This document shows positions 32,851 to 44,712 of a stretch of DNA of 64,000 bases, piece by piece. The position numbers and the translations under genes are program-made. Where the stretch lies: the NCBI GenBank assembly GCA_905250025.1, contig CAJNOJ010000001.1, forward strand, positions 248,001 to 312,000. The letters are read 5' to 3'. Position 1 is the stretch's first letter; each line of letters starts with the position of its first letter. The notes under the pieces were generated by a model. That model saw only the letters and a program-made list of their open reading frames with translations, searched no databases and was not told the origin of the DNA. The DNA is from Adineta ricciae. Lineage: Eukaryota > Rotifera > Eurotatoria > Adinetida > Adinetidae.

Positions 32851-33640
32851 ATGGATAATTTAGAATACAGTGTCTCACCAGCGGTGAGTTATCTCAATTC
32901 ACCTGAAGGAATTCCATTTGATGGACGATCGTACGCACTATATGGTATGTTATATTTCTCTTTCTATAGAACTGTGTGTTATATTATGTTTGAGTTTGAA
33001 TAGATCCCAATTTTAAAATTTATGATTCGTTCACGATTAATTTTCAAATGAAAACGTTTGCCGCAGATGGTCTTCTCTTATGGATTAGTGATCCATTACC
33101 AGATTCAAGTTTTACAATCGAAATTCAAAATCGGCAGGTAACTTTTCTTTTGTCAGTATCTTTAAGATTGATTATAACATAAAATAGTTGATCGCACGAG
33201 CTGTTGCACGTGGTCAACCGTACAGTGTTCGAACTAATTTCACTAAAAATCGTCTATGCGATGGTGCATGGCATTTCATTCAAATACGTCTTGATGGTAG
33301 TTCACTTGTTATGAAAGTTGATAAGCGTCAGTATACAAAAACCGAAGCACGTGTTCATTCAGTTGATATGCGTGGCCCACTGTTCATCGCTGGTCATTCG
33401 GAAAAGTATTCTCCAACATATTTATCTGTTCGTACCAAACAGTTCTTCCATGGGGATATACGGCATTTGAAAATCAATGATAATCCAGTTGAATGGCTTG
33501 CACCACGTCCTACGACGGTTACATCGGATTATTATCATTTAACGTCGGCTATTTTATCGACTACGAGTGAACAAGGAGATCTCACTCCACCAAATGTTGA
33601 TGGACATTCGCCAGAACAAATACTAGCTGCTGCAAATTGA
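32851..33640 (+). CDS. short laminin-G domain protein without signal peptide
   Basis: Three exons code for about 225 residues forming essentially one laminin G-like (LNS) beta-sandwich. Exon 1 starts MDNLEYSVSPAVSYLNSPEG with a stop codon (TAA 32842-32844) in frame just upstream, so no further N-terminal coding is possible without another exon. Family features are SYALYDPNFKIYDSFTINFQMKTFAADGLLLWISD, LCDGAWHFIQIRLDGSSLVMKVD and LFIAGHSEKY...FFHGDIRHLKIN in order. This is the layout of an LG module from laminin alpha, agrin or neurexin. It ends with a Thr/Ser-rich tail and TGA at 33638-33640. Free-standing LG modules normally belong to secreted proteins, yet no signal peptide is seen. It may be a fragment derived from a longer matrix gene, or an upstream exon may be missing. 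Confidence 0.75.
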
Positions 33641-33754
33641 TTAAGAAAGAACAGTGTGTATTGCAAAGAAGTTCGAACCGGTTTATGTGCGAAATAGTTA
33701 CTTTTTTCTTCTCATGTATACAAAGTACCATTTTGTTCCTTTTTTTAAAATATA

Positions 33755-33760
33755 AATAAA
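33755..33760 (+). terminator. likely poly(A) signal of the laminin-G gene
   Basis: AATAAA about 115 nt after the stop codon, and about 110 nt before the next gene starts on the same strand. Confidence 0.45.
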
Positions 33761-33868
33761 CAAGAATTGCCAAAAAGAAAAACAAGAACCAGTCTTGATT
33801 TGATAAACAGCTGATTAAATGGCGCTGACTGACTCATTGAATAAACGGCATCTTTAATTGAACAAAAC

Positions 33869-36800
33869 ATGTCTGTCGCTACGCCTTGTGATAAAATCTC
33901 TTCGACTATTACACATGGAATTGGACCAGAATTCATCTATCCGTTCCTTGTCCTTTTCTTTGCTACTATTCTTCGAAAAATCTTCAGGTTGGTTTTGCCT
34001 ATCGTCTGATAAATGTCAGTCATAATTGTTTTCAGGCACTATAACCTGTCTCTTCCATATACAGTTGTCTTAATGCTCGTTGGTGCTGTTCTTGGTGCTT
34101 TTTACCAGTACGAACTTATCAAACGACTCACCTTCATTGCTGATTTAACACCTGTTCAAATTCTTGCTATCTTTTTACCAATTCTGATCTTTGAAAGTGC
34201 TTTTTCTTGTGATCCACATATTTTCATCAAGTGTCTCGGACAAATTCTCATACTAGCCATTCTCGGCATGTGAAATGTATTAATCATCTTCAAATTCCAT
34301 ATAGACTTTTACGTAGGTTTCTTAATTTCTGTGGCATTGACGACTTTAGCTGTGATGTATTGGTATGAGAACGAACATCAAATCGATGTCCAAACATGCT
34401 GGACATGGGATCAAGCTGTTTTGTACTCCGCAGTAGTGTCAGCAACTGATCCCGTATCCGTCGTTAGTCTGTTAAAATCAATGACATCGTTGAAAACATT
34501 ATCAACTGTAATTGAAGGAGAATCTGTAAGTGAACTTGTTTGCCGAGAACCTCTATATTCGTTTTCAGTTGTTAAACGATGCTGCGGCGATTACGATTTA
34601 TACCTTAATCAAAGATTTGATTCACGAAGCTGTGAAATCTGACAAATACGTTCTGCAACAAACACGTGCAACTCTACTTGGTGTTAATTCTGAAAAATGT
34701 GCACATGCAGTCAGATTCCTAATAAAACGGAAGATTACTCCCATCTATCTACTAAAATTCGTACTGAAAACCATTGCTGCAGCGATCTTAATTGGTTAGC
34801 ATCGATCCATCATTTCCATCCTAATTACTTTCTATTTCATTCAGGCTACATCATGGCACATATAACTATATGCATTCTCTATCGCATTGATGCTGGTGAA
34901 TTAGAAACATGTATTACGATCATCATGTCGTATTTTGTTTATCTAACATGTGAAGCCATAGAAGCGTCAGGTGTCATCGGTGTTGTGCTACTCGGTTTAA
35001 CACTAAACATGAATCGTGCTTGTTTTAGTGTTTCGGCCGTAACGATATCAGAGCAAACATGGCAATTACTTGCTTATGTAGCAAACTCATTGATTTTCAT
35101 TACTGTTGGTGTCATTTTACTGAAAACACACAGCGGAAGTGATAAGATGTTATCATTGTTAAGTTCCTTGCCACAACTACTATTGATTTACATCATACTG
35201 ATATCAGTCCGCGCAATTATGATTTTATGCACTCATTTTCTATTGAAACAAATCGCCTATGGGTTTACATGGAAGGATTCTATTGTCACAATTTGGTCTG
35301 GCCTACGTGGCGGTGTAAGTTTGGTTCTCGCATTAACACTTTTCAATAGTCGAATCAAGGAAAACTACCAAGCAGAAATCATGCTGATACATACAACAGC
35401 CGTCGTCTTCCTAACTTGTACAGGTAAATGCAATGATTGTCTACATACAAAACGATGGCGTACTTTTACGATGTTGTTTTTCTCATATCTCAGTCAATGC
35501 ACTGACGATACCGAAGATTGTACATATTCTACGATTGGATCGAACATCTGAATTGATTAAACAGACAATGATGCAGATAATAAAAGAATTGAAAATGAAA
35601 CAGAATGACATGATTCGATCGCTGAAAAAGAATCCGATTTTAGCAACAGCGGACTGGATGTTTGTACAGAAGGCAATTGATATTCGATCACCATTTGACG
35701 AAAATAAAGAGGACAGGATCAAAGAAAATTTACCATCAAAACACCACATTGATACAGTCGAATGTGATCATTGCCAAGCATACGTCACAATTCCAATATC
35801 AAAATCAGAATTTCGACAAACATTCGAAGACTGTCGAATCCGAATTTTAAGGTTTGTTACCCTCAAGTCATTTAATACGAGAAATTTCTTGCTTCAGATT
35901 GCAAAAAACACACTTCTGGTCGAATTATTACAATGGACAGTTGTCATCTTATGGACTTCACACATTAAATGCTCTATGTGATCGAGCGATTGATACACCA
36001 AAAGCGTTTATAGATCTCAAAACTATCAAAGCGCACATTGTCGGTAAAAGTCGAATACGCTCGATATTGAATTTTATACGAACAAGCACACGACAATGGC
36101 AAAAGTCCTTATCTTGGCATGATTATTTCCAAAATCAATCTCCGACAACTCGACGTTGTTTCACGAAATTGTTTCATTGCTTATTTCTTACAATTCTTAT
36201 CATTTTGATCGAATGTACAATCCTTACCTACCAAATTCATACAAATCCTTGCAACAGATCATTCGAAAGCATGTTATCACCGTTGTACATCACATTAGAG
36301 ATCGTTTCCAGTTTACTTGTGTTCTTTGATTCTATTCAATTCTATTTTTGGTTTTCTTACCATCAAAAACGCAAATTATTTGTTTCCAATCTAATTTGGA
36401 TGATCCTATATATGTTTAGTGTTGCCTGTCGTTGTATCAGCTGTATTATTCATTTCATTATGATTAGAATACGATCAACTAGTCAATTATGTTTGAGTTT
36501 TTATATTTTTAAAAGTTTAAGTTTAATCGAATGTTTTATTCTATGTTTCTTTCTTATTGAACCACTTCAATTACTAGTCGATTATATTCTCAATCAATAT
36601 ATCAGTGTTAGTTATGATATTGGCTTAGCGTACATATCATCCGAGGAACAAGTGCTACGAATTATACATCGATTGACAGATAATGGTAAGAAAACTCTTT
36701 CTTGGACGTTCGCACTGCATCTGAAGTTTTCAGAAAGTATCCGAATCCGTATCCATGAATTATCGCTTCAACATATTAAAAGTGTCTTAAACGATGTTCT

Positions 36801-38519
36801 TCTTATGCAGGAAGCTCATCCTGGAACGGTAATAAGCATCAAAACACACCATACGATCAATTTGTTATACAATACTGCTAAGCGAGGTATTAGTCAAATA
36901 CGCATCCGAGGAGTTCTTGATACTGATGATTGTGATCTGCTTGAACAATCACTGAAAAACATGCGTATTCAATTACACATCCCATCGACAATGCCATCTG
37001 TTTCGCCGATGGTTGTCATTCAAAAATTCTCTTGGCTTTACTCTAATCAACGCTTAACCGATGATCAAAAACATGACATTGAACAATTACTGATTCATGC
37101 GCTTCCCAATGAAAATACAGCACGTTTTGAGAATGAAACTCTCTTACATCCGCAAAGTTTCTCTTGGCAAGATTTTCTATGGCATAAAAATGACCAACTC
37201 AATGGAGTTTATTTATTAGTCAATGGAATTGTCGAGGAATGGAAACTTGATCCGTATGATATCGATGCAGCTCATAGTGAAGTCCGATGGAAAGAAAATC
37301 ATCGGACACGGAGAACTACTCTCCCAACACAACAGATCCTAAAACCCTACGGTCTCATCAGATCCAAAAGCAAATACATCGGTAATCATAGTTGACATAT
37401 TCGTTGAGCCAAACAATCACTTTTAGGTTCAACATCAACACGAAATATGAATAGTATTGTTTCCGATTTACGTCCTCAAGAGCGATCCGTATCGTCTATC
37501 GATGGCGTAGATTCTACGAAGTATGATCAACATGTTTTTCGTTTCTTTTTGCATCAGTTTACTTATACTCAGAACTTACGAGAAAAATTCTACCGATGGA
37601 ATCACATCATCGAGTGAACCAATTCGTTCTTCGCCAATCGAACATGTTCGCATTTCATTCGAAGACGGATTCTATATTCGATGGTATCATCGTATGATAA
37701 ATCCCATTGATGACAAGTTCACCGGCAAACTGATTCCCACGGACGATGGTATTCATCAATATTATCATCCGAATCAAAATGATGAGAACTTCGATGAATA
37801 CTTTGACGAAACATTTGAAAAATACCGGCAAATGCATCCAGCGACAAGTGAACGAGTCCATCGCCGTTATTCATCTCGTTCGGGTCATTGCATTGGTCTC
37901 TACGATCTATTGTTCAACAATGGTGAAAAACACGAATCAACAGCAAAATGTGTCACGAATGTTACTGCATTCTTTCTTTCAAAACAAAAACTACTTCAGA
38001 TTTTTAACACATATGCATTGTGGGATATCATTTGGCTAGAAACAAGTACATTTTACCATCTAGCTCTACACCTACCATTGATTTTTCATAGGTATTCATT
38101 TGGCTCTGCGTATTCTACCGAATATTTCATCATTTCAACACTCATCTACAAGAAAATCTGATAAACATCTTACGATGATTAATAAACGATTATTACATTC
38201 TGGTTTACTTATTTACACTGAGGGAACGTGTACAACGAATGATATCATTCAATTGCATGAAGATCTTCTGCTTGTCACTGGCTCTGTACGAAATCAGTTA
38301 ACTAAATGTGTCTATGAAGCTCCTGTCTTCATCAAAAGTTCGTTGACAAAACAAGGTTTGAAATTACTCGAAGGATCGTCATCGACAAAAATTCTTGTTC
38401 TACCACGAACGTCAGCCACTATTAATCTTTTCACAGATTTTGTCTTGATACAAAGCATCCTCAACAATGAAAACAAATATCAATCTCAAAAGTACGGTCA
38501 AGATAAATCAACAAATTGA
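33869..38519 (+). CDS. SLC9C1: sperm-type Na+/H+ exchanger (SLC9C family)
   Basis: A large membrane protein with three parts known in SLC9C: an NHE exchanger, a voltage-sensor-like domain and a cyclic-nucleotide-binding-like domain. About nine exons join in frame from MSVATPCDKISST to KYGQDKSTN. The exchanger keeps the transport signatures: SATDPVSVVSLLK, VIEGESLLNDAAAITIY with the Asn-Asp pair, and IWSGLRGGVSLVLAL with the conserved Arg. Four further spans follow (about 36150-36600), then the family segment YDIGLAYISSEEQVLRIIHRL. The last part has LNGVYLLVNGIVEEW and, about 150 residues later, GLYDLLFNNGEKHESTAKC, which together look like a cyclic-nucleotide domain split by a low-complexity insert. 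The presumed S4 lacks a regular Arg ladder and the phosphate-binding Arg is absent. The exchanger is probably active; gating by voltage or cAMP is doubtful. It ends at TGA 38517-38519. Confidence 0.85.
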
Positions 38520-38899
38520 TTGAGAACATCATTTTTGTAGTAGAGAATAACATTTGACATGAAAAATAAACGACACTTTTCACAGCATTACCTGTGGCTT
38601 TTATCGATGTTTGTATTCATAAAAATAAAAAAGTGAGTTGTAATACGGTGAGGTAGAAAATATGACGAAATAACTAATATACGCATGTTTAGTTATACTA
38701 CTGGTAAATCGGTATATCTAACCTTGCTATTTCTACTTCTACTAGTGCTAGATTAATGGTTACGATAATGAAGTATTTTGATGTTGTTTGTTTTTTCTAT
38801 TTTTTATTATTTCTGTTAGTATGAATTGATACAAAAACAACTGAGAAAACTGTTCGTATTTGTGATTATCTATGGTACATAATCGTATAATGAATATGT
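38520..38899. other. convergent 3' regions
   Basis: A 380-bp spacer between the SLC9C and Grg1-like genes, which point toward each other. It holds an AATAAA at 38565-38570 and nothing else that I can see. Confidence 0.4.
38565..38570 (+). terminator. likely poly(A) signal of the SLC9C gene
   Basis: AATAAA 46 nt after the SLC9C stop codon on the same strand. Confidence 0.45.
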
Positions 38900-39172
38900 T
38901 TAATGAATTGCTTGTTGTTTGTGTGCTTCAGACTTAGCCGCATGTTTAGTTTCATCAATTTTGTCACCTAAATTCAGCAATAGAATGTATCGTGCTTTAA
39001 ATTAAAAGTATTTCTCCTACTAACCGACAGCGTCGACAGCAGCTTCAGCACGAGTGCCTACACTAAGATTCGAATCTTTGGCGATTTCTTTGTTAGCTTC
39101 CTTGCTGGATCCGGATACAGCTTCTTTGACTTTTTCGACACCGGCTTTGCATGCGTCAGTAATTTTTTCCAT
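38900..39172 (-). CDS. Grg1/CCG-1-like small stress protein (fungal-type)
   Basis: Two exons separated by an intron of about 60 nt (GTTAGTAGG...TTTAG) encode about 71 residues from ATG 39172 to TAA 38900. The sequence is strongly hydrophilic and Ala/Lys/Glu-rich with no Cys and no membrane span. The central SSKEANKEIAKDSNLSVGTR and the ending DKIDETKHAAKSEAHKQQA follow the pattern of the fungal glucose-repressible/clock-controlled proteins Grg1 and CCG-1, including ASKEANKEVAKDS, VGTR, AA-DAVGDK-DE and a terminal AHKEA-type motif. In fungi the transcript is very abundant in starvation, stress and conidiation, and its biochemical role is unknown. The hydrophilic, helix-prone composition resembles LEA-type protectants. 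A eukaryotic intron and animal neighbours argue against contamination. A TATA-like motif (39238-39247) lies about 70 bp upstream. Confidence 0.72.
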
Positions 39173-39729
39173 CGTTTGATTTGAATGAGTATGTAAAAGT
39201 GTAGATCAGAGAATGAAGCCAACTGATTTTTTCGCAGGTTTATATACGATCATGAGAGAAGAGACGTGTACGCGGAGGTTCGACCAAGAAAAAGTTTGAA
39301 AAAGCTTCTCGATTCTTCTCCGCATAGAGACAAAGAGTACATGTCTTGATTACGTACGTCTTCGTATACCTTGATTCTTAAAGTTTATATGAAAAATGAC
39401 GATTATTGAGTAAAAATTACGAAAAAGGACGCATGTCTTTCCTATTGCGTCGTATTAGATAATTTAAGTAGCGAAAAATCAATGATGTGTATCAATGATT
39501 TGAAAATGAAGAAGAAAAATGAAGTGCACTACACACACCCCGAGTGACTATTCGCGTCATTTTGTATACATTGATTGTCTTGCGCCTTAAACGACTCTAT
39601 AACATTTGTCATAACAGCACGTGTCAGTGCTTGATAGTCGGTAAGTAAACAAAGATTTGCTCTTCATCGGAAATTATTCTGTTGGGCGTATTTTACAAAC
39701 AGAAAACGGTCAAAACGCACGAGAAATGC
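39173..39729. other. promoter side of the Grg1-like gene
   Basis: A 557-bp stretch holding the upstream region of the Grg1-like gene and the 3' side of alternative oxidase. The minus-strand sequence GTATATAAAC is a good TATA candidate, and GAA/TTC-rich words near 39290-39325 are loosely like heat-shock elements but do not form a perfect one. Confidence 0.4.
39238..39247 (-). promoter_or_regulatory. TATA-like element of the Grg1-like gene
   Basis: GTATATAAAC on the minus strand, 66-75 bp upstream of the start codon. The spacing would give a 5' UTR of roughly 35-45 nt. Confidence 0.45.
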
Positions 39730-40938
39730 TTAGTTTTTATTTGCTGTATCGATTGTTCGTTGTTCATCTAAACTAGGTGGAGGCGGTATTTGATTTTCTT
39801 CAACCAAAAATGGATTCGGTGCATTTGGTCCGACATCAGCTAGTTTATGATTAACTCTGCAAAACATAAAATCATTCGAGAAATTTTATTACGCATGATA
39901 AACATGGATACATACTGTCGATGCGTTGCTTCGTCGGCACGGATAGCTAATAAGACATCTCTTAGCATTGCCTTATCCGATAACTTCCAATAATTTCTAG
40001 CTATTGTCGGTGCTGGTAGATTAGTCCAAGCTGGCAGCTTACCAGCATCGAGATCTTTCAGACATCGGGTATACGTGACCACTGCTTCTTCTTCCAAAAA
40101 GCCAACAAATCGATGACAAGTTTTCGGAGAGAGAAGATAAGATAAAAAGAAAGCACTAAACAAGGAATTTATAATCAAACTAGTTCGTTCGAAAAGAAGA
40201 ATTGCTCACTTGAAGAATACACCTTGGCCCAAAAGAACAAAACTACGAAATATCCAGCCTGGCTGTCGTAATTCCAGAAATGTCAGCAGATGCATTCGTT
40301 CATTTTCGGCTTCAGATAATAATGTATGAATCCATCCATAATCACGACGCATTGTACCTTGAAATATTGAGACTGTTATTCAATTCCTTGTTGAATTATG
40401 CTTACGGAGTGATTTCATATGACGAGTCATTCCACCAACCATGCCGGGCACGCCAGCAACTGTTTCAAGGAAAATGAAACGTCTCAGCCACTGTTCTTCT
40501 GTCATCGAAGGATTTTGATAACCTAATTTTGCCATCGTCGGTCCATGCAGATAACCCGTGAAGGTATCGAAGACTAAACGTAATGTACGAACGGCTGCAT
40601 AAGCTACTCGATCATGCCATGATTTGAGTTTTTTATGAGTCGTTGTGACGTTTTGTAGTTCCTTCTCCGAATATATCTCATGATGCATCATGTAATCTTT
40701 CAGTTCTATACAATTTCGAAATTGTTTTCTGTCTAGCCGTAGCATCATTTCACACTTTCCGCTTACGTTTTATTTCCAACGACTGACGGTGTTCCTTCTC
40801 TTCGTTCATTAACGACGAACTTGTATGAAGTAAGCCACGTGGTTGAATACCAGCCAATTGCGAAACATATTTCGCTGTTGTGGACGTTAAACAAGAATTA
40901 TAGAATACTAGATTTGTAGTTCTTATCATCAAGCTCAT
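39730..40938 (-). CDS. AOX: mitochondrial alternative oxidase
   Basis: A di-iron ubiquinol oxidase of the inner mitochondrial membrane that passes electrons from ubiquinol to oxygen without pumping protons, bypassing complexes III and IV. I chose the ATG at 40938 ([14 protein letters not shown]), which begins a basic, Ser/Thr-rich presequence; the frame is open to 40980 but runs across a possible TATA. The joined product of about 340 residues keeps every iron-ligand motif: [32 protein letters not shown] and RADEATHR. The membrane-binding helices and the conserved YLHGP are also present. It ends [21 protein letters not shown] at TAA 39730-39732. AOX is widespread in invertebrates but missing in vertebrates and insects. 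Its place next to a Grg1-like gene on the same strand may be chance. Confidence 0.95.
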
Positions 40939-42179: not shown

Positions 42180-42538
42180 AATATTTCGAAGTTGAAAACA
42201 GCCGAATAAAATCTAGTAGATAAAAGCCGCAAATGGACGAACAACAAACTGAAATAGATGATGTTAAACAGAACAAATAAAAAATGAATGATTCTATCTT
42301 TGAAATGATTCGCTCGTTCGTAGTACCGTCAATATAGGCATGTGTTCGTTTACCTGGCGAAAGACAGCGGCCTCTATAGTCTTCATCTGGAATAATTTTT
42401 GAACATATACTCGAATTGTCGATACGCAACGCCCTCTCACTTCCCGTTGTACGCGATTGATGGATGAATGAATAAAACAATTCTGTGCTCATCGTCATTC
42501 ATACTTGTATTTTGATCGAACAGCCGTGAGAGGAAGAT
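42180..42538. promoter_or_regulatory. divergent promoter region ARPC4/NOP58
   Basis: A 359-bp gap between two divergent housekeeping genes, so a shared bidirectional promoter is plausible. No TATA or other defined element is evident. Confidence 0.4.
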
Positions 42539-44712
42539 ATGGTAAGAAAAATGATTTTTTGCGATCTTGACTATAATTCTCTTTCGATTCTTTAGTCAAA
42601 ATTATACATTCTTTTCGAGCATGCATCGGGCTACGCACTATTCCGAGTTCGGGAGTTCGAAGAGATTGGTATGAACATTCCGCAAGTCGAAGCAAGTGTC
42701 GTTGATTTATCGAAATTCGCAACTGTTGTTAAACTGGTTGCGTTTCATCCGTTTCAATCTGGTATCAATGCATTGGACAACATCAATTCCGTTTCTGAAG
42801 GTTTAGTCCATGATGATCTACGGACATTTCTCGATACAAATCTTCCCAAAGAGAAGAAACGTGCAAAAATGATTCTCGGCGTTGCTGATTCACGCGTCGC
42901 ATCAAGTATTAATGAACTCTTTTCAATTACTTGTCAACATACGGGAGTTGTACCCGAACTCCTACGAGGTACAATTAAGATAGCTGAAAATGAATCGTGA
43001 ATCATGTTTGTTTTTCAAGGTCTTCGACTGCATTTCCCAAATTTGGTCAAGGGTTTAACCGATCAGAATCAAAGCAAAGCTCAACTTGGTTTAGGTCATG
43101 CATATTCTCGTGCAAAAGTCAAATTCAATGTAAATCGTGTCGATAATATGATCATTCAGTCCATTGCATTACTCGACCAGCTCGATAAAGATATCAATAC
43201 GTTCTCCATGCGCATCCGGTACGGAAAAGTCCTTCACAAGAGAATTCTTTCGTGCCTTTACCACAGACTTTAGAGAATGGTATGGCTATCATTTTCCTGA
43301 ATTGATCAAAATCATCACCGACAATTACACATACGCACGTGTTGTACATTTAATCAAAAATCGAAAAGATTTCTCCATTGATCGTCAGGAAGAGTTAGAA
43401 ACAATCACTATGGATAGCGGAAAAACAGCAGCAGTCTTCGAGGCAATGAAAACAACGATCGGTATGTTATATAAAGTGTAATTTATATCAGAGTTTGAGA
43501 GAATATTTTAGGAATGGATATTTCACCGATTGATTTGATCAACATCGAATCATTTGCAAATCGTGTCATTCATTTATTCGACTACCGAAAAAGTTTACAA
43601 GAAGTATGTATTTCGATGTTGACAAGTTTCGTTAACTCCTTTTGTTTAGTATCTGAAAAGCAAAATGGGACAAGTTGCGCCAAATCTAGCAATGTTGATT
43701 GGCGAACAAGTAAGTGCTGACAGTCAGCTTTTTTCCTCTCATACAATATTTTATAGGTCGGTGCACGTCTCATTGCTCATGCTGGTAGTTTAACCAATCT
43801 TGCGAAGTATCCTGCGTCGACCATTCAAATCTTAGGTGCTGAAAAGGCGCTTTTTCGGTAAAATATTCGACAAAATTGTATTGACTGAAGTGAAACTTTT
43901 GTCGATTCGTTTAGGGCCTTGAAAACGAAAGGCAACACGCCAAAGTATGGTCTTATTTACCATTCATCACATATTGGTAAAGCAAATACACAAAATAAGG
44001 GCCGCATATCTCGATATCTGGCAAATAAATGTGCAATTGCGTCCCGAATTGATTGTTTTTCAGGTTTGCTTGTCTGCCAAATTAATGGTAAATCTTATGT
44101 TTGCTTCTTGTAGACATTCCGACTTCTGTGTTTGGTGATCATTTGAAACAGCAGGTATCTGATCGTCTGAAATTCTATGATAATGGCGAATTACCACCGA
44201 AAAATGTCGATGTTATGAAGATTGCTTTGGAAGAAGCAGAAGTTGAACGTGAACAAATCTTAGTCAAAGANNNNNNNNNNNTTGAAAACGAAAGGCAACA
44301 CGCCAAAGTATGGTCTTATTTACCATTCGTCACATATTGGTAAAGCAAATACACAAAATAAGGGTCGCATATCTCGATATCTGGCAAATAAATGTGCAAT
44401 TGCATCCCGAATTGATTGTTTTTCAGGTTTGCTTGTCTGCCAAATTAATGACAAATCTTATGTTTACTTCTTGTAGACATTCCGACTGCTGTGTTCGGTG
44501 ATCATTTGAAACAGCAGGTATCTGATCGTCTGAAATTCTATGATAGTGGCGAATTACCACCGAAAAATGTCGATGTTATGAAGATTGCTTTGGAAGAAGC
44601 AGAAGTTGAACGTGAACAAATCTTAGTCAAAGAGAAGAAACGCCGGAAAAAGGAGAAAAAACGGCGTAAGGCAGCCGAAGCAGCAGCCGCTGCTGCTGAA
44701 CTTGCCGAATAG
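42539..44712 (+). CDS. NOP58: box C/D snoRNP core protein NOP58 (with duplicated 3' exons at an N-gap)
   Basis: NOP58 is a core protein of nucleolar box C/D snoRNPs that guide 2'-O-methylation of rRNA. Exon 1 is only ATG (42539-42541), followed by an intron and [20 protein letters not shown]. The middle carries the NOP5/NOP56 N-domain, coiled coil and Nop domain: [69 protein letters not shown], then [15 protein letters not shown] and a basic tail of [18 protein letters not shown] ending at TAG 44710-44712. The segment 43919-44270 is followed by 11 N and then by a near-identical copy, 44282-44633. A normal protein needs only one copy; the tail is present only after copy 2. The true gene is probably intact and the sequence around the gap misassembled. 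Confidence 0.93.
43919..44270 (+). repeat. 3' NOP58 exons, copy 1 (352 bp)
   Basis: This covers the end of one exon, an intron and the next exon of NOP58. It is the same length as 44282-44633 and differs from it at only about ten positions, including changes in both intron and exon. It ends exactly at the run of N. Confidence 0.9.
44271..44281. other. assembly gap (11 N)
   Basis: Eleven undetermined bases separate two near-identical copies of the same NOP58 segment. A short fixed-size gap between such copies is typical of contigs scaffolded without removing overlap. Confidence 0.95.
44282..44633 (+). repeat. 3' NOP58 exons, copy 2 (352 bp)
   Basis: Near-identical to 43919-44270 and continuing into the Lys-rich C-terminus and stop codon that copy 1 lacks. 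The few-percent divergence would suit two haplotypes. Confidence 0.9.

Follow-up and report, generated by a model that had tools for sequence, protein, structure and literature searches.

The question raised by this locus is how a small protein resembling the fungal Grg1/CCG-1 proteins, a family that includes the Neurospora gene grg-1/ccg-1 and is known chiefly from fungal spores, comes to be encoded in the genome of an animal, most likely the bdelloid rotifer Adineta ricciae. In the window, by which we mean the whole stretch of 64,000 nucleotides that was analyzed (G+C about 36%), a preliminary description had pointed out a hydrophilic Grg1/CCG-1-like product, specified by two exons behind a TATA box and integrated between animal genes. 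Three things have to be settled: whether the likeness is real, whether the gene belongs to its host, and how old the family is in the bdelloid line.

The 71-residue product matches the Pfam Grg1 family (PF11034) with an E-value of 2.8e-24 and 85.5 bits (cut-off 25), its residues 1–67 spanning positions 1–67 of the 67-position model, and the similarity that had been claimed is thus significant. Since none of ten scrambled controls (nine shuffles and the reversed sequence) matched Grg1 at E ≤ 10, the match is not a mere effect of composition. Although a protein rich in A, K, E, and S might be suspected of being a low-complexity, LEA-like peptide that resembles the model by chance, the failure of all of these composition-matched controls, the match over the full length of the model, and the 12 invariant columns across nine aligned units (of 16) make such a coincidence practically negligible. 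The window gene is a genuine single-domain member of the Grg1 family, and its product has the size and composition of one (about 70 aa, hydrophilic, single domain): 71 aa, one Grg1 stretch, and a GRAVY of −0.71, with no W, F, Y, or P, in agreement with the hydrophilic character first proposed. Membership in Hsp9/Hsp12 (PF04119) was not found (E 0.28, 12.1 bits, cut-off 26.3), and at E ≤ 10 this weak match and Grg1 were the only Pfam results, with no LEA model among them; an NCBIfam search of the protein returned nothing, and no solved structure was significantly similar (best E 0.37).

The gene itself is a real two-exon gene on the minus strand, at 38900–39172. Exon 1 (39025–39172, minus strand) starts with the ATG at 39172 and encodes residues 1–49 plus the first base of codon 50, while exon 2 (38900–38967, minus strand) includes the TAA and carries the second genome-search match (C1:286915–286971, C1 being the contig of the window). 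Between them lies a GT...AG intron of 57 nt in phase 1 (38968–39024, minus strand), just the ordinary short intron that had been described; without splicing, the frame reaches a stop after residue 50, and the 71-residue product depends on its removal. A TATA-like box, TATATAAA (39239–39246, minus strand), is indeed present 74 nt upstream of the ATG; by chance, such a box is found in 7.8% of 5000 random 120-nt segments of the window. A possible polyadenylation signal, AATAAA, can be read at 38803–38808 on the minus strand.

Upstream of the gene and on the same strand is an alternative oxidase domain (39912–40673, minus strand; C1:287912–288163 and 288191–288673, with 161 and 134 bits), and on the other side is an ORF with a Na+/H+ exchanger domain (34697–35548, plus strand; PF00999, E 3.8e-19). 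Both neighbors named in the preliminary description were thus recovered as domains, but the assignment of the exchanger to the SLC9C subtype is no more than possible, the cyclic-nucleotide domain in the adjacent ORF reaching just E 0.24. The exchanger gene (34697–37392) may belong to the sperm-type SLC9C group, and its host is probably an all-female asexual animal. For the ORF encoding the C-terminal part of the exchanger, no second match was found in the genome.

The family name alone might suggest fungal contamination of the assembly, but the gene lies between the exchanger and the alternative oxidase on a contig of 1.7 Mb, this contig has an ohnologous block on contig C17, and ten more Grg1 copies occur in the same genome. 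Because the 11 copies are spread over eight loci, the window gene is not a contaminant, an explanation to which we assign hardly any weight; it is integrated into the animal genome, as had been claimed and as a case for transfer requires. The block on C17 is collinear with the window from 25.7 to 44.7 kb (nine matches, 66–76% identity), except that about 6.4 kb containing the exchanger and Grg1 (33498–39910) correspond there to about 1.3 kb (L032:5815–7149), in which neither a relic nor a counterpart of Grg1 was found. The simplest reading is that one segment was lost from C17, although an insertion on the window side is a possible alternative. Elsewhere in the window, 43919–44633 consists of two 363-bp tandem copies (97% matches), and 42445–42700 is 91% identical to two sites on contig C153 that lie 10 kb apart (256 and 227 bases).

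A search of the genome (130.46 Mb in 1033 contigs) gave 18 six-frame Grg1 matches, which were assigned to the 11 gene copies, designated here by their contigs. Seven of the eight loci exceed the Pfam cut-off; the eighth (L043, on contig C54, match 243494–243679, minus strand) is Grg1-like but diverged, has no intron, encodes 68 aa, and scores 21.2 bits. In the same genome, a bdelloid spliced-leader sequence had no exact match, which counts against the bdelloid reading unless the letters used are wrong or the gene is missing from the assembly, and the telomere repeat TGTGGG was set aside as a diagnostic, with 28 matches against 30 for its backward control.

Many of the Grg1 copies are paired. 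Over about 10 kb, C5 and C2 are 94.6% identical, C50 and C33 93.0%, and C27 and C1:1.57M, the second copy on the contig of the window, 93.6%, as homologs would be. The pairs C50/C33 and C27/C1:1.57M resemble one another at 72–73% in the gene and 72.6–74.1% in one flank, and C20 resembles C39 at 86% in the gene and at 70% and 67% in two flanks; from these gene and flank identities, both sets are taken to be putative ohnologs. C159 and C5/C2 are likely ohnologs as well, with an ohnolog-like dS of 1.18, although no matching flank was found within the 10-kb regions compared. With 45 to 96 synonymous sites in each comparison, dS amounts to 0.22, 0.12, and 0.08 in the three homolog pairs and to 1.24, 1.36, 1.39, and 1.18 in four diverged comparisons. 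According to the available part of an earlier study (PMC5916493), mean dS in A. ricciae is 0.14 between homologs and 1.27 between ohnologs, so that one of our homolog pairs (0.22) lies above the published mean; the same source gives 0.05 and 0.61, respectively, for A. vaga, and 0.70 for the ohnologs of two Rotaria species. On this comparison, the host is most likely A. ricciae or a species close to it.

In all seven of these comparisons, dN/dS is between 0.03 and 0.11, and the paired paralogs are thus under purifying selection. The window gene, which has no close partner, is compared less readily: dN/dS is 0.20 against C39 and 0.48 against C54, with dS saturated or nearly so, and no dS could be obtained against C20 owing to saturation. 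Since two gene lines have each been kept as ohnologs, the bdelloid line probably possessed Grg1, in duplicated form, before its tetraploidization. Given this probable age, and 11 copies at eight loci, the window gene is not a recent import of a single gene.

The family has also been remodeled internally. The profile scan detected two Grg1 stretches in each of three copies (C159, C50, and C1:1.57M), and C33 and C27 are presumably two-domain proteins likewise, judging from their near-identity to their partners. C5, from which C2 differs by one residue, has a single Grg1 stretch near its end, preceded by a region with a repeated segment. In a tree of 16 units, constructed from a short alignment and without an outgroup, the first domains cluster together (support 0.80), as do the second domains (0.92), and because of this grouping the internal duplication probably happened only once; the window gene clusters with the long-branched C54 (0.91).

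The intron position of the window gene is absent from the other ten copies modeled. An intron at codon 16/17, preceding the Glu of K-x-E, is found at six of the eight loci, in phase 1 in C159, C5, C2, C50, C33, C27, and C1:1.57M and in phase 0, one base off, in C20 and C39, and is absent from the window gene and C54. In C50, C33, C27, and C1:1.57M, this intron recurs at the matching site of domain 2, whereas domain 2 of C159, C5, and C2 lacks it and has another intron a few codons upstream. One might speculate that a fungal Grg1 gene was acquired together with its intron before tetraploidization, fused with itself to give two-domain proteins, and gave rise to a class of bdelloid anhydrobiosis protectants. 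The intron common to the six loci, which four copies carry in each of their two domains, might then be a remnant of the donor gene; we consider this history rather doubtful.

As to the source of the ancestral gene, fungi and animals are sister groups, and Grg1 may be an old opisthokont gene that was inherited vertically, lost in most animals, and kept and expanded in bdelloids. Such a history would fit the apparent age of the family, which looks older than the tetraploidization, and, in the available part of the A. vaga study (PMC10809525), the Alienomics pipeline did not call transfer for the Grg1 genes of that species. However, the same text, whose authors hypothesized a transfer from fungi, reports that their best BLAST hits are in fungi, that this agrees with the gene tree of an earlier A. 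ricciae study, and, as far as that text goes, that Grg1 has not been reported from other anhydrobiotic animals (PMC10809525). We view vertical inheritance as possible but clearly the less likely course, and horizontal transfer from fungi as plausible.

A plant, protist, or bacterium could also have been the donor or the recipient. Transcripts named GRG1 or Grg1 appear in the accessible portions of plant desiccation and drought transcriptome reports, where they may be fungal contaminants or a namesake gene, and a weak signal to the Grg1 model (E ≤ 1) was seen in one or in five of 14 well-known prokaryote genomes, depending on which of two scans is considered. Yet none of these 14 control genomes contains a match above the Grg1 cut-off, and pattern searches through 84,980 prokaryote species, in which 62 stretches fitted, produced a single tblastn relative (43% over 47 residues). 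This relative was rejected as a composition match: it is a run rich in Ala, Asp, Gly, and Glu, and the same stretch, identified by its coordinates, reaches just 12.3 bits where the cut-off is 25. Viral contigs contained 250 stretches that fitted a pattern, and no relative. The involvement of such a third party is accordingly improbable.

The composition of these proteins offers some indication of what they may do. The mean helical hydrophobic moment of the window protein was equaled by only four of 500 shuffles; for nine of the other ten copies, it was equaled by zero to eight of 500, and for C54 by 46 of 500. Together with the hydrophilicity, this is in keeping with a protein that lacks order in water and takes the form of an amphipathic helix upon drying or at membranes, and Grg1 is likely to be a protectant of the LEA/Hsp12 kind.

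TATA boxes are found upstream of the ATG, at distances of 74 to 144 nt, at six of the eight loci (eight of the 11 copies); C159, C5, and C2 lack them. The word AAGAAAA occurs at seven of the eight loci, above all 200 shuffles, and ACGAGAA at six, and for 8-letter words the observed value was reached by one of 200 shuffles; as the leading words are mostly A-rich, we draw nothing from them. Heat-shock elements (at most one mismatch, within 400 nt) are unconvincing against a background of 0.72 per kb: one is located at −146 in the window gene, two in C1:1.57M, three in C27, and one in C20, and the remaining seven of the 11 copies have none.

Expression data exist for relatives. In the available part of the A. 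vaga study, six members of a set of eight Grg1 genes are over-expressed following rehydration, and five of these six are also up at entry into desiccation; one gene is constitutive rather than induced, which counts against the explanation favored below (PMC10809525). An earlier study had found over-expression of the family in A. ricciae at the start of desiccation (Boschetti et al. 2011, as cited in PMC10809525), and in one proteome study, as far as its accessible text goes, Grg1 ranked first in abundance among the proteins of dormant conidia of Aspergillus fumigatus (PMC3424117).

Taken together, we favor the following explanation, with a probability of roughly 0.6: the window contains a single-domain Grg1 gene of a bdelloid, most likely A. 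ricciae, whose ancestral gene was probably acquired from a fungus in the bdelloid line before tetraploidization and was then duplicated, in some copies internally too, the pairs being held by purifying selection; and its product would serve as a desiccation protectant. The protein would probably be disordered in water and adopt an amphipathic-helical fold when it dries or meets membranes, and in its folded form it may shield membranes and proteins as LEA proteins or Hsp12 do, with the gene presumably being induced upon entry into and exit from desiccation.

The survival of drying by bdelloids, which are microscopic animals, is not fully explained, and Grg1 is a good candidate protectant because it is abundant in dormant fungal spores and because drying and rehydration induce Grg1 genes in bdelloids; the age, the copy number, and the two-domain forms make the family testable. 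For bdelloids, the literature already covers the family, the way it responds to drying, and the possibility that it came from fungi, and the window gene, while sound, is not new but one more copy of this known case. Within the library searched, no other rotifer papers on Grg1 were found; Grg1 terms do not occur in the main texts of the space-station paper on A. vaga (PMC12220480) and of a survey of foreign genes in bdelloids (PMC3499245), nor does "glucose-repressible" in that of a compendium on gene transfers in animals (PMC13342648). Among known systems, the Grg1 genes of A. vaga and A. ricciae are the closest, being of the same Pfam family in the same animal group, and the 2011 study probably concerned the very species examined here; the A. 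vaga study counts eight genes, as compared to eight loci here (seven if the Pfam cut-off is applied), and in its available part we saw no mention of the ohnology, the two-domain copies with their internal duplication, or the introns described here (PMC10809525). The window protein is also close in mass to A. fumigatus Grg1 (AFUA_5G14210), at 7,461 Da for 71 aa as compared to 7,367 Da in the accessible text on that protein (PMC3424117).

From its computed composition, the window protein is likewise comparable to Hsp12/Hsp9 (PF04119) and LEA proteins, which are small, hydrophilic, helix-prone, and stress-related. Its likeness to the fungal Grg1/CCG-1 proteins, among which Podospora PaGrg1 is also named, consists in the full-length match to the family model; in contrast to these fungal counterparts, it is encoded in an animal genome, at a locus of animal type, and is accompanied by several copies that carry two Grg1 domains.
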